Source of the DNA: Bacteroidales bacterium
GTDB lineage: Bacteria; Bacteroidota; Bacteroidia; Bacteroidales; UBA932
Reading direction: 5' to 3'
Length of the DNA stretch: 42,727 nucleotides
Assembly (NCBI GenBank): GCA_028707695.1
Contig: JAQWAL010000006.1
Coordinates: 1 to 42,727, forward strand
The notes under the pieces are model-generated. The model was not told the origin of the DNA, made no database searches, and saw nothing but the letters and a program-made list of their open reading frames with translations. The translations under genes were made by a program, and so were the position numbers. Shown here piece by piece: positions 19,674 to 23,352 of the stretch. Numbering within the stretch: position 1 is the stretch's first letter; every line of letters begins with the position of its first letter.

Positions 19674-22600
19674 TTATTCCTCCTCATTGTTAACTGTTAC
19701 CCTAACATCGCAACGGAGACATCTGGCAACCTCTTCGTATGCCTGCTCTTTGGTGTAGCCAAGGTTGATCTCTTTAAAATTACCAAGCCTCTCTTCAAGA
19801 GGTCTTTTGACAGAATAGTGACGATTCCCGCCCTCGGGTTTTAATGGTACTTTGTCACTATATTCAAAAGCTCTGAACAACTTATGGAACCTCCTCTTGT
19901 TTGTCAACTCATGGTCAATTATCTCGGCAGCTTTTTTGGCCAATCCCATTGCCTCTGCAGCAGTGGAAGGACCAGTGACTGCATCTCCGATAGCATAGAT
20001 TTTCGGATGGTTGGTTTTGAATGAGAAATGATCTGCAAATACATTTCCGTTGGAAGAGGTCTTTATTCCGAACTCCTTAAGGAAAGGAGCTTCCACTTCT
20101 TCGCCAACGGCCATTATAACTGTATCGCATCCCACAATAAACGACTCCCCGGTTGGAACCGGCTTCCTTCTGTTGGACAAATCAATATCGCCACACTCCA
20201 TTTTGGCCAATTCAATACCTCTTACCCTATCATTCACATCGGCAAGAATTTCTGTTGGATTACTCAAAAACAAGAAATTAACTCCTTCAATTTCTGCCTC
20301 TTTTATCTCATCCTTGTTGGCAGGCATATCTGCTTTGACCCTTCTGTACACCACAGTAACCTCAGCTCCGAATCTTTGGGCAGTACGTGCTGCATCAATT
20401 GCAACATTTCCTGCACCAATCACAACCACATTCTTGCCTATGTCAGGTTGTACCCCCTTGGCAACATCCTTAAGGAAATCCATTCCAGAGACAACACCCT
20501 TGAGATTGTTTCCTTTGACATTAAGCATAACATCTTTATGAGCTCCTACGGCAATAATGATTTTAGAGAAGTCATGTTCGAGCTCCTGCATGGTTACATC
20601 TTTGCCAACAGTCGTGTTGTACCTGAAATTAACACCGAGGTTCTTTATGAATTCAACCTCCCTGTCCAGAACTTCAAGCGGCAACCTGTACTTAGGTATG
20701 CCCCATCTGAGGATACCGCCGGCAGCAGAGTCAGATTCAAACACAGTCACATCATGCCCCAACCTTACCAAATAAAAGGCAGCAGTCAAACCGGCTGGAC
20801 CAGCCCCAATGATAGCAATTTTTTTGTAAGTAGGAGCCAATTTCTCTTTTATCAACCTGTTGTAAATCTTTTGTGTTTTACCTTCCAAATGGACGGTATC
20901 CGCAATATACCTGTGTATATCGCCCTGTGAAACAGGAGCATCTATTGTCTCCCTCAAACATTTCATTTGACAATGGAAGTGACAAATACGACCTATAGAA
21001 GATGGCAATGGATTGTCCCTCAGTGTAGATTCAAAAGCATCTTCCAGTTTGTCCTCTTTGAGAAGCTGCAGGTACCTAGGAATATTCATATGCAATGGGC
21101 AACTGTTTATACACAAAGCAGTGAACAAATCGTGACAAATTCCCGGCTCACATTTTTTCTCAATCATATGATGGTCGTACTCATCCCTAAAGTAACGCAA
21201 AGTTGTCAGGACAGGATTGGGAGCTGTTTGACCCAAACCGCACAATGCAGTACTCTTGATTGTATTGCCCAGTTTAATCAATGTTTCAATGTCCTTCTCT
21301 TCTCCTTTCCCCTGTGTTATTTTATTCAGGATATGCAGAGTTTGCGCAAGCCCCTCACGACAAGGAGTGCATTTACCACATGACTCCCCGTTGGAAAATT
21401 CCGTAAAATACCTGGCAACGTCAACCATGCAATTATCTTCGTCCATGACAACCATCCCACCGGACCCCATTATTGTTCCCAAAGAGTTCAAGGATTCGTA
21501 GTCTACAGGTGTGCTCAAATACTCAACAGGGATACAACCTCCGGACGGACCGCCAGTCTGGACAGCCTTTACCCTTTTGTGGGATCCGGTTCCTTCTCCG
21601 ATTTTGAAAACAATCGTTTCCAAAGTAGAGCCCAACGGAAGTTCTACCAACCCTGTATTCTTTACTTTACCTACCAGCGAGAAAACTTTGGTCCCGGAAC
21701 TCTTTTCAGTTCCTGTTCCTGTGAGCCACTCCCCTCCTTTGGATATTATGACTGGCACATTGCACCAAGTTTCAACATTGTTTATGTTGGTTGGTTTTCC
21801 GTAAAGACCTTTCTCGGCCGGATACGGAGGTCTTGGGGTTGGTCTTCCGGCTCTCCCTTCTATACTGTGTATCAGAGCAGTTTCTTCTCCGCAAACAAAC
21901 GCACCGGCTCCCTCAACAATATCTATGTCAAAGGAGAAACCCGAATCCAGTATGTTTTCTCCCAACAACCCATGTTCCTTTGCCTGTCTGATTGCTCCTT
22001 TAAGCCTCTGGACTGCAAGTGGGTATTCTGCCCTTATATAGACCACGCCTTTTGATGCACCCATTGCGTATGCACCAATTGTCATACCCTCAAGCAACAT
22101 GAACGGATCACTTTCAATCTCATTCCGGTTCATGAATGCTCCGGGGTCGCCTTCATCTGCATTGCAAATAACATATTTTTGATCTGCTTCTACCTTGGCC
22201 ATAAGGTCCCATTTTACTCCTGTCGGGAATCCTGCACCCCCTCTTCCCCTGAGTTTGGAAGATTTGACTTCTGAAATTACCGACTCTGGGGTCATCTCCT
22301 TAAGAGTTTTGTAAAGTGGGAAATAACCCCCTACTCCAATATACTCTTCAATATCGTCAGGAACAATCAACCCACAATTTCGCAATACAATTTTCTTTTG
22401 CCATTTGAAAAAGGGCACATCATTCCAAAGGGGGTACTCTTCCAACCCCTTACCGTAATTGAATTCTCCAGTAATATAATCCCATGATTCTATCCTGCAC
22501 ATTACATTCCTGTATGGCATTATACCTCTTTCTATTCCCAATAAAATTGGTACCACATCATTTTCAGTGACCCTGTGCATTATTATCAGCGGCTTGCCAG

Positions 22601-22838
22601 GGATATAGATGTTCACTAGAGGCTCCTCTGCACAAAACCCGAAACATCCTGTTTTTTTTAGAATTATATCCAGGTTCTTCTCTTTTATGCTTCTTTCCAA
22701 ACTGTCAAACAACACCTCTGCACCTCTTCCTATACCGCATGTTCCCATACCTACGGCAACATATGGCTTGTTTGGGAGGATCTTCTTTTCGCCATTCTTT
22801 TTGATTTTGGCCAAATCACCGTAATCTGATATTCTCAT
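19674..22838 (-). CDS. hydB: HydB-type NuoF-like subunit fused to GltD/NfnB-like flavoprotein
   Basis: The 1054-residue protein joins two enzymes. Residues about 25-95 are a thioredoxin-like ferredoxin domain with three visible cysteines (C34, C65, C69). Residues about 145-550 are a NuoF module: the FMN/NADH site RGRGGAGFPTG (197-207), an SLBB region, and the [4Fe-4S] motif ESCGKCTPCREG with C533. From about 560 to the end is a glutamate-synthase-small-subunit-like module, with cysteine-rich iron-sulfur segments (C563-C580 and C619-C627), an FAD fold (GAGPAG, 678-683), an NAD(P) fold (GAGNVA, 808-813) and the GDAVTGPSTAAEAMGLAK segment. A final CLRC (1040-1043) ends the chain. NuoF-type HydB normally ends in a ferredoxin domain; here the GltD module takes that place. 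Likely role: passing electrons between NAD(P)(H), ferredoxin and HydA. It overlaps hydC by 23 nt. Confidence 0.94.
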   Translation of the reverse strand: MRISDYGDLAKIKKNGEKKILPNKPYVAVGMGTCGIGRGAEVLFDSLERSIKEKNLDIILKKTGCFGFCAEEPLVNIYIPGKPLIIMHRVTENDVVPILLGIERGIMPYRNVMCRIESWDYITGEFNYGKGLEEYPLWNDVPFFKWQKKIVLRNCGLIVPDDIEEYIGVGGYFPLYKTLKEMTPESVISEVKSSKLRGRGGAGFPTGVKWDLMAKVEADQKYVICNADEGDPGAFMNRNEIESDPFMLLEGMTIGAYAMGASKGVVYIRAEYPLAVQRLKGAIRQAKEHGLLGENILDSGFSFDIDIVEGAGAFVCGEETALIHSIEGRAGRPTPRPPYPAEKGLYGKPTNINNVETWCNVPVIISKGGEWLTGTGTEKSSGTKVFSLVGKVKNTGLVELPLGSTLETIVFKIGEGTGSHKRVKAVQTGGPSGGCIPVEYLSTPVDYESLNSLGTIMGSGGMVVMDEDNCMVDVARYFTEFSNGESCGKCTPCREGLAQTLHILNKITQGKGEEKDIETLIKLGNTIKSTALCGLGQTAPNPVLTTLRYFRDEYDHHMIEKKCEPGICHDLFTALCINSCPLHMNIPRYLQLLKEDKLEDAFESTLRDNPLPSSIGRICHFHCQMKCLRETIDAPVSQGDIHRYIADTVHLEGKTQKIYNRLIKEKLAPTYKKIAIIGAGPAGLTAAFYLVRLGHDVTVFESDSAAGGILRWGIPKYRLPLEVLDREVEFIKNLGVNFRYNTTVGKDVTMQELEHDFSKIIIAVGAHKDVMLNVKGNNLKGVVSGMDFLKDVAKGVQPDIGKNVVVIGAGNVAIDAARTAQRFGAEVTVVYRRVKADMPANKDEIKEAEIEGVNFLFLSNPTEILADVNDRVRGIELAKMECGDIDLSNRRKPVPTGESFIVGCDTVIMAVGEEVEAPFLKEFGIKTSSNGNVFADHFSFKTNHPKIYAIGDAVTGPSTAAEAMGLAKKAAEIIDHELTNKRRFHKLFRAFEYSDKVPLKPEGGNRHYSVKRPLEERLGNFKEINLGYTKEQAYEEVARCLRCDVRVTVNNEEE

Positions 22839-23352
22839 CTTTGTTTCCCTCCTGTAAGTTTTTAAGGATTTTTTTGATTTGTTCTGAGGTTACATTGCTA
22901 TAAATCACACCATCAACAGCAACAACCGGTGCCAGGGCACATTGGCCGAAACATGCAACCGTTTTAACTGTCAGAAGCCTGTCTTCTGTTGTGAAACTGT
23001 TTTCTCCTGCATCAAGGGCTTCCTTGCAACCTGGCAATGAAGACATATCATCGAGCAGAACCTTAGAACCTTTTGTGTGGCAAGCAGTTCCCCTGCATAC
23101 AATAATTGTATGCTTTCCTTGTGGTTTCAGGTTAAAAAAGGAATAAAAGGTTGCTACACTGTAAATTTGAGAGAGTGGCGTTTTGGTCTGGGCAGACAGA
23201 TACGACATTGCGTCAGAGTCAAGAAACTTGTACTCGTTAGTTTCCTGCATCTCTTCCATCATTGTTAGCAGAGAGCCCGGTTTTCCATTGTGCCTGGAGA
23301 TTATCTCGTCAATAGCTACCCTATCGGCAAGATTATCGTCGCTGGTATTCAT
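22816..23352 (-). CDS. hydC: HydC: NuoE-like [2Fe-2S] subunit
   Basis: The 178-residue protein is a NuoE/24-kDa-type thioredoxin-like ferredoxin. An N-terminal helical bundle (with MSYLSAQTKTPLSQIYSVAT, typical of NuoE) is followed by a [2Fe-2S] site formed by C86, C91, C134 and C138 (motifs VCRGTACHTKG and ACFGQCALAP). It relays electrons between the NuoF-like FMN site and the hydrogenase subunit. It is first in the operon; its 3' end overlaps hydB by 23 nt. The probable promoter lies about 140 nt upstream, leaving a long untranslated leader. Confidence 0.94.
   Translation of the reverse strand: MNTSDDNLADRVAIDEIISRHNGKPGSLLTMMEEMQETNEYKFLDSDAMSYLSAQTKTPLSQIYSVATFYSFFNLKPQGKHTIIVCRGTACHTKGSKVLLDDMSSLPGCKEALDAGENSFTTEDRLLTVKTVACFGQCALAPVVAVDGVIYSNVTSEQIKKILKNLQEGNKDENIRLR

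Follow-up and report, generated by a model that had tools for sequence, protein, structure and literature searches.

The window analysed here, a stretch of 42,727 nucleotides from a Bacteroidales bacterium (UBA932; assembly GCA_028707695.1, contig JAQWAL010000006.1), encodes an [FeFe]-hydrogenase of the HydABC kind whose HydB subunit is fused, in one chain of 1054 amino acids (aa), to a GltD/NfnB-like module with motifs for flavin adenine dinucleotide (FAD) and NAD(P). As far as sequence can establish, this fusion is a real, conserved and well-defined variant of HydABC, previously noted in one genome paper, and its domains, its cofactor residues, its hinge and the exact replacement of the ferredoxin arm are demonstrated. 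The architecture suggests that H2 can be coupled directly to both NADH and NADPH, and we slightly favour the reading that the ferredoxin branch of a HydABC-type [FeFe]-hydrogenase has been rewired to NADP(H), which would make the complex an H2/NADH/NADPH enzyme.

Replacement of the ferredoxin arm at the hinge

An earlier sequence-only reading of the window had described a single open reading frame (ORF) joining HydB to a GltD/NfnB-like module, and the ORF and the order of its Pfam domains (E ≤ 0.001) bore this out; its positions for the flavin mononucleotide (FMN)/NADH, [4Fe-4S], FAD and NAD(P) motifs were also right. The same reading held that the ferredoxin domain of a classical HydB is missing. 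Consistent with this, no 2x[4Fe-4S] ferredoxin family was among the 19 Pfam families listed (Pfam was used, not InterPro), the sole Fer4-type match being Fer4_20, and the alignments to HydB or StnB chains of known structure (five shown) start at residues 26-31 and end at residues 572-577.

These alignments run through the hinge metal site. In A. mobile HydB, the site comprising C438, C476, H525, C531 and C536 was modelled as the [2Fe-2S] cluster B2, and its authors noted a Zn ion at the same site in T. maritima (PMC8880783); in T. maritima, Zn2+ was assigned to this site, which is made up of three Cys and one His, and the mobile C-terminal arm was proposed to hinge there (PMC9499530). The fusion equivalents are C470, T508, H557, C563 and C568, Thr at the C/T476 position being described as the usual [FeFe] HydB variant (PMC9304861). 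Conservation was assessed in 87 distinct fusion proteins, the set left from 99 rows once duplicates among the trimmed sequences had been taken out, and all 87 differ from one another over residues 400-900 as well; 57 have His at residue 642 (His642-type, the clade of the window) and 30 have Lys (Lys642-type). The hinge Cys/His set is present in 57/57 His642-type and 29-30/30 Lys642-type fusions, the missing cells being X. Exactly 7 residues separate Cys568 from the first GltD cluster cysteine in 87/87 fusions; in 55 distinct unfused HydBs, the interval to the first ferredoxin-arm cysteine is 11-12 residues by pattern in 54 and 11 by eye in the remaining one (L135). The constant spacing, the kept hinge residues and the end of the HydB match at 572-577 together show that the GltD module replaces the ferredoxin arm at the hinge itself.

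Cofactor sites of the two halves

The N-terminal thioredoxin-like domain has three cysteines (Cys34, Cys65 and Cys69), as in StnB-type chains; Cys34 is kept in 55 of the 57 His642-type rows (the other two are gaps) versus 9 of the 30 Lys642-type rows. The FMN/NADH-site motif LRGRGGAGFPTG lies at residues 196-207, and the cluster B1 cysteines (Cys487, 490, 493 and 533) occur in 57/57 His642-type and 30/30 Lys642-type fusions. Both the FMN and NADH_4Fe-4S domains (PF01512, PF10589) were found in 28/28 aligned fusions; the SLBB domain PF10531 was found at E 0.001 in 6/28, not including the chain of the window (IPR019554 is the corresponding BfuB criterion of the Bfu family).

In the second half, the iron-sulfur region contains Cys576, 580, 619, 623 and 627, present in 87/87 rows, together with His642; gaps at Cys576 and/or Cys580 in two Lys642-type rows of another comparison probably reflect trimming by the numbering of the window's chain, and the alignment of the 87 fusions has Cys in 30/30. 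A Pyr_redox_2 match covers residues 673-964 (1.7e-37). Arg718, which corresponds to R201 of NfnB and R239 of StnC, and Y831-R832-R833 are found in 87/87 fusions, and Cys1040 and Cys1043 each in 84/87, the remainder being gaps or one Tyr. In alignment, the C-terminal CLRC segment has its counterpart at the N terminus of NfnB from P. furiosus (5jca_L); the segment has thus moved to the C terminus, as in Stn-type chains. The FAD and NADP residues tested showed no decay across the 87 fusions, and the cluster residues of the GltD half are conserved too; the two separate flavin/nicotinamide sites that had been proposed are supported by sequence motifs for both.

Residue 642 distinguishes the groups: it is His in the clade of the window (57/57) and Lys in the other fusions (30/30), and among 15 unfused GltD rows it is Lys in 10, Glu in 5 (four distinct proteins, NfnB-type) and His in 0. 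The equivalent K170 of StnC apparently serves as a ligand of the cluster adjoining FAD; NfnB has Glu there (PMC10482914).

AlphaFold2, run on the single fusion chain with 28 sequences, gave a model of moderate quality, with a mean predicted local distance difference test (pLDDT) score of 80.5 and a predicted template modelling (pTM) score of 0.56, and the placing of the two halves relative to each other was not trustworthy and was left unused. In fold searches, the first half matched HydB/StnB chains (target TM 0.77-0.88 in the first 12 rows) and the second half NfnB 5jca_L (0.81) and StnC; for each half, Stn/Nfn-Bfu chains ranked with the best matches in sequence and in fold.

Operon and source genome

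The fusion ORF lies in a tight operon with the order hydC-fusion-hydA (Table 1). It overlaps hydC by 23 nucleotides, as in most same-genus loci, its stop is 2 nucleotides from hydA, and an AGGAGG-like site, judged by eye, lies just 5' of its start.

Table 1. Positions of the operon genes and of the sites within the fusion chain
Feature	Position	Strand	Basis
HydB-GltD fusion ORF, 1054 aa	19674..22838	(-)	Uninterrupted ORF, ATG start, Pfam, kept in other genomes
hydC, NuoE-like subunit, 178 aa, thioredoxin-like [2Fe-2S]	22816..23352	(-)	Pfam PF01257, 6.3e-39
hydA, [FeFe]-hydrogenase catalytic subunit, 590 aa	17899..19671	(-)	Pfam PF02906, 2.5e-100
N-terminal thioredoxin-like domain, residues about 26-105	22524..22763	(-)	Alignment to 8oh5_B and 9n5u_B
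NuoF FMN/NAD(H) domain, residues 191-362	21753..22268	(-)	Pfam Complex1_51K (PF01512), 7.6e-46
NuoF [4Fe-4S] domain, Pfam match 473-557	21168..21422	(-)	NADH_4Fe-4S (PF10589), 4.8e-33
Hinge metal site, His557-Cys563-Cys568	21135..21170	(-)	Alignment to 7t2r_B H525/C531/C536, conservation
Cys470, fourth hinge-site residue	21429-21431	(-)	Alignment, conservation
GltD N-terminal iron-sulfur region, residues 576-650	20889..21113	(-)	Pfam Fer4_20 568-650, 1.9e-22; conservation
FAD-binding GAGPAG, residues 678-683	20790..20807	(-)	Sequence; Pyr_redox_2
NAD(P)-binding GAGNVA 808-813 and YRR 831-833	20340..20417	(-)	Sequence; YRR 57/57 and 30/30
C-terminal CLRC, residues 1040-1043	19710..19721	(-)	Two-segment alignment to 5jca_L

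HydA is a complete group-A [FeFe]-hydrogenase subunit, with Fe_hyd_lg_C and SSU domains (Pfam), and scored 867.6 bits (cut-off 765) against NF040763, the model for the NADH-dependent group A6. Its L1 motif is TSCSPGW, in which Ser occupies the position of the second Cys. A lost catalytic motif was ruled out as the explanation, TSCSPGW occurring in 79 of 87 distinct HydA-like proteins (90 of 100 rows) and in A. woodii HydA1. The L2 and L3 motifs agreed, by eye, with the consensus and with published text. A NuoF-type protein adjoins hydA on its upstream side, and the HydDB rule for the bifurcating group A3 looks downstream of the catalytic subunit for a protein with a NuoF domain (PMC5037454). 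Beyond hydA lies an aldo-keto reductase gene on the opposite strand.

Elsewhere, the source genome encodes the HydF maturase (contig C86), a further HydABC of the classical kind (contig C49), with the usual cysteine motifs of ferredoxin type at the end of its HydB, and NfnA-like and NfnB-like genes side by side (contig C6). A 769-aa frame was rejected as one chain, being two genes, NfnA-like and NfnB-like, and the hint of a 1837-aa HydB-StnC fusion was rejected as a stop-to-stop reading of separate genes. Additional Fe_hyd_lg_C genes form a tandem pair at a contig end (C93 15471-17158; L003, L004), and another lies upstream of the classical HydABC (C49 11232-11873; L005), near kinase-like and PHP-type genes (by eye); these additional genes possibly have a sensory role.

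Distribution, origins and partner genes

We surveyed 41 genomes of the genus and order. Among 25 same-genus genomes, the source included, the fusion is a single ORF in 20, is divided in two between separate contigs in 3 and is missing from 2; residues 134-1053 of it were found in another genome of the order. At E ≤ 1e-230, a threshold that contig-split copies can escape, the fusion was found in 11 of 395 Bacteroidota genomes (source included) and in 45 of 297 genomes of an Acidobacteriota sample, which was centred on an Acidobacteriaceae genome picked because of its fusion and counts that genome. The nearest named records are Bacteroidales metagenome-assembled genomes, and others include Lentisphaerae, Omnitrophota, Akkermansiaceae, Kiritimatiellae (partial), Acidobacteria, Chloroflexi (partial) and Ancalomicrobiaceae. 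In a plasmid collection, 17 records matched at E ≤ 1e-100 and 0 covered 80% of the query. A sequencing error joining two genes, named in the sequence-only reading as a possible refutation, is ruled out, as is an assembly artefact, because the same ORF occurs across same-genus genomes and in other phyla. The fusion is thus a widespread family, whose members adjoin [FeFe], [NiFe] or glutamate-synthase-domain genes.

Phylogeny of each half, which that reading had put forward as a check, gave a divided answer. For the NuoF half, a single origin of all fusions was rejected by the approximately unbiased (AU) test (p 0.0017; 39 fusions versus 16 unfused), for a grouping that came from a previous tree built on overlapping data, and loss and regain of the ferredoxin arm would give the same picture. 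In this tree, the His642 fusions form one group (17/17 rows used, support 100/100) and the 22 Lys642 rows used branch at several points. A previous tree, built with a smaller number of Lys642 rows, required two changes for the NuoF half and two for the GltD half; in the GltD half, the fusions may have arisen once.

Partner genes were classed from short flanks with score limits, on which the counts depend, each locus being put in the first class matched. The 57 His642-type loci comprise 32 with [FeFe] HydA, 14 with a [NiFe] large subunit, 10 with only a HoxU-like gene and 1 with none; the 30 Lys642-type loci comprise 9 with [FeFe], 6 with a glutamate-synthase domain, 8 with only a HoxU-like gene and 7 with none. 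At L029, the HydA counted belongs to a neighbouring cluster and the contig ends just past the fusion. Wider regions of 8 genomes moved the His642 loci L152 and L154 to [NiFe] and confirmed [NiFe] at L155; in Lys642 loci, they confirmed the glutamate-synthase gene in 2 and [FeFe] in 1, revealed a [NiFe]-large-subunit-like fragment further downstream at L182, and left L189 with a HoxU-like gene only. The [NiFe] subunit was named by Pfam in 4/4 His642-type loci tested, and the best NCBIfam models (2 tested) were of group-3 type, below their cut-offs. His642 fusions lie beside HoxU-like and [NiFe] large-subunit genes at L044, L055, L057, L058, L186 and L188, loci from Acidobacteria, Thermoanaerobaculia, Proteobacteria and Ancalomicrobiaceae records and from two genomes of the Acidobacteriota sample.

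Lys642 fusions stand with HoxU-like and glutamate-synthase-domain genes at L137:2660-8999, L183:4190-10530 and L185:2173-8526, the last with a [NiFe]-large-subunit fragment upstream as well, and it is possible that glutamate synthase is fed through a HydBC-like core in these operons. For the complex of the window, we consider it very improbable that the hydrogenase is glutamate-linked, either supplying reductant to glutamate synthase, as HydDB group A2 putatively does, or connecting H2 to glutamate oxidation or assimilation. The 6 of 30 Lys642-type loci classed with a glutamate-synthase-domain gene (Pfam Glu_synthase in one tested) fit such a link, on which the discussion of the V. guaymasensis genome also speculates (PMC6163223). 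Against it, 0 of 57 His642-type loci, the window included, were so classed (many have short flanks, and the hydrogenase class was assigned first), and the HydDB rule for the glutamate synthase-linked group A2 requires a GltD neighbour with NuoF absent (PMC5037454); here GltD and NuoF domains share one chain.

In several same-genus or near records, an extra hydrogenase cluster lies beside the fusion operon (L036:5689-9161, L041:3893-7365, L043:11012-14484 and L141:2714-6185), where the window has the aldo-keto reductase gene beside hydA. The cluster consists of a HydA of about 596 aa, a HydB of 394 aa and a HydC of about 162 aa; the short HydB matches the NuoF core only and has neither thioredoxin domain nor C-terminal arm. 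Separately, L135:3144-5558 encodes an 804-aa chain that begins with a HydC match and continues as HydB, a HydC-HydB fusion.

Proposed electron route and alternatives

In the HydABC/Stn core, electrons are thought to pass from FMN to NAD+ and, via HydC or StnA and the C-terminal arm, to ferredoxin, with B3/B4 as the domain where ferredoxin putatively binds; the Stn enzyme has a GltD domain with FAD, which sends electrons via its clusters to the FMN of a HydBC-like core (PMC10482914). We infer the electron route in the fusion, the use of NADP rather than NAD at the FAD site, and the gating. HydA would make or split H2, and its clusters would connect through B1 to the FMN and NAD(H) site of HydB. 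A second branch would run from FMN through the [2Fe-2S] cluster of HydC, the metal hinge and the two [4Fe-4S] clusters of GltD to FAD and NADP(H). The likely reaction would be 2 H2 + NAD+ + NADP+ <-> NADH + NADPH + 2 H+, with its direction set by H2 pressure. The sequence-only reading had proposed coupling of H2, ferredoxin, NADH and NADPH; its two nicotinamide sites are retained in our proposal, and the ferredoxin coupling is weakened, because replacement of the B3/B4 domain makes H2, NADH and NADPH without ferredoxin the simpler reading.

The energetics are compatible with this scheme. From published potentials (-280, -380 and -500 mV for NAD, NADP and ferredoxin, physiological, and -414 mV for H2, standard; PMC9304861), we calculated that H2 would balance with NAD plus NADP at about -330 mV, or roughly 1.5e-3 atm H2, with NAD plus ferredoxin at about -390 mV, or 0.15 atm, and with NAD alone at 3e-5 atm. 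The H2 pressures suited to an H2/NADH/NADPH enzyme would accordingly lie between those for the other two combinations; this is an argument of consistency and not evidence.

Several points weigh against the rewired H2/NADH/NADPH enzyme. Residue 508 is not strictly of ligand type (T 52, S 2, C 2 and A 1 in the 57 His642-type fusions; T 15, C 8, S 3, K 3 and A 1 in the 30 Lys642-type fusions), the AlphaFold2 model is weakest at the module junction (pLDDT <50 at 560-578), and the GltD module, being of much greater size than the ferredoxin arm, may not move likewise. His642 is presumed to be a cluster ligand from alignment to StnC K170, and YRR occurs in every GltD-type row compared and so does not discriminate NADP from NAD at the FAD site. 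Finally, NfnB shares this fold and passes electrons to ferredoxin by way of two [4Fe-4S] clusters (PMC10482914), so that the fusion may use ferredoxin as well.

This last point, together with the retained hinge residues of bifurcating HydB, would suit an ordinary bifurcating HydABC in which ferredoxin docks on the GltD clusters and the FAD/NADP half is an accessory or a third outlet, that is, the four-partner enzyme of the sequence-only reading. We judge this improbable: the putative ferredoxin domain is absent, the FAD/NADP residues show no decay in 87 fusions, the Glu next to FAD in NfnB is His in the clade of the window, and the source genome already has a classical HydABC and an NfnA/NfnB-like pair.

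The other alternative shares the replacement of the arm with our proposal and differs from it solely in gating: both sites would be wired ungated to HydA, giving a non-bifurcating H2:NAD(P) oxidoreductase and transhydrogenase. The potentials of NAD and NADP are close, so that no low-potential acceptor would be forced, and members of the clade are also found beside [NiFe] genes in Acidobacteriota and Pseudomonadota. The hinge His, reported to be absent in non-bifurcating homologues (PMC9304861), is nevertheless kept in every readable row, and on our assessment ungated wiring is rather unlikely. True bifurcation rather than simple wiring is possible, at somewhat under an even chance. We would likewise only tentatively propose a ferredoxin-free, HydABC-like bifurcating class, with an NADPH dehydrogenase module on the HydB hinge, through which NADH and NADPH would jointly yield or take up the electrons of H2, and, in the clade of the window, a His-ligated [4Fe-4S] cluster beside FAD, within a wider family that has [FeFe], [NiFe] or glutamate-synthase-like partners in several phyla.

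How the single FMN of HydABC sends an electron to a low-potential acceptor is unsettled, as is the nature of the hinge metal. In the fusion, the core and the hinge are kept and the terminal acceptor of the arm is exchanged for one assayable by absorbance. Bifurcation by the fusion would show that the mechanism can work without ferredoxin, and a lack of bifurcation would point to a possible need for the ferredoxin arm. Prediction of H2 metabolism from NuoF-type annotation alone would miss a possible direct link to NADPH, as in the 45 of 297 Acidobacteriota genomes.

Comparison with known systems

Like the HydABC enzymes of T. maritima, A. woodii and T. kivui, the complex has HydA and HydC homologues, a NuoF core with FMN, cluster B1 and the metal ligands of the hinge; unlike them, it has GltD with FAD and NADP motifs in place of the C-terminal 2x[4Fe-4S] ferredoxin arm. 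The Stn/Nfn-Bfu enzymes (S. ovata StnABC, T. sibiricus NfnABC and C. saccharolyticus Nfn-ABC) share with the fusion a HydBC-like core, GltD and the C-terminal CxxC, but they carry GltD on the NuoG-like subunit, keep the ferredoxin arm on StnB, lack an H-cluster and have Lys at residue 642, whereas in the window GltD is on HydB, there is no ferredoxin arm, HydA is intact and residue 642 is His. P. furiosus NfnI (NfnAB) shares the GltD/NfnB fold, Arg718 (R201) and the cluster cysteines; unlike NfnAB, the window has no NfnA in the operon, the N-terminal segment of NfnB is now C-terminal, and Glu is replaced by His642.

The A. mobile [NiFe]-Bfu enzyme HydABCSL shares the core and the hinge ligands but keeps the ferredoxin arm and has Cys, not Thr, at 476. 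The Bfu survey of Schut et al. (2022) defined BfuB partly by a ferredoxin-type domain and described the core cofactors as conserved in all members (PMC9304861). The fusion has the His525 equivalent and the Cys/Thr set and lacks that domain (IPR017896; B3/B4); a HydB without it would probably have escaped that survey.

The closest precedent is V. guaymasensis L81, for which the domain swap has been in print since 2018: one of its trimeric [FeFe]-hydrogenases (peg.3894-3896) was described as having an enlarged HydB in which GltD takes the place of the two-[4Fe-4S] domain, and its authors suggested a second NAD(P)H site from annotation (PMC6163223). Judged from the published description, GltD follows the FMN/NADH domain of HydB there as in the window; unlike the organism of the window, V. 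guaymasensis is a Firmicute, and its architecture was reported from annotation only. To that report, the present analysis adds the hinge-exact replacement of the arm, the His/Lys/Glu signature, the spread of the family and its exchange of partners.

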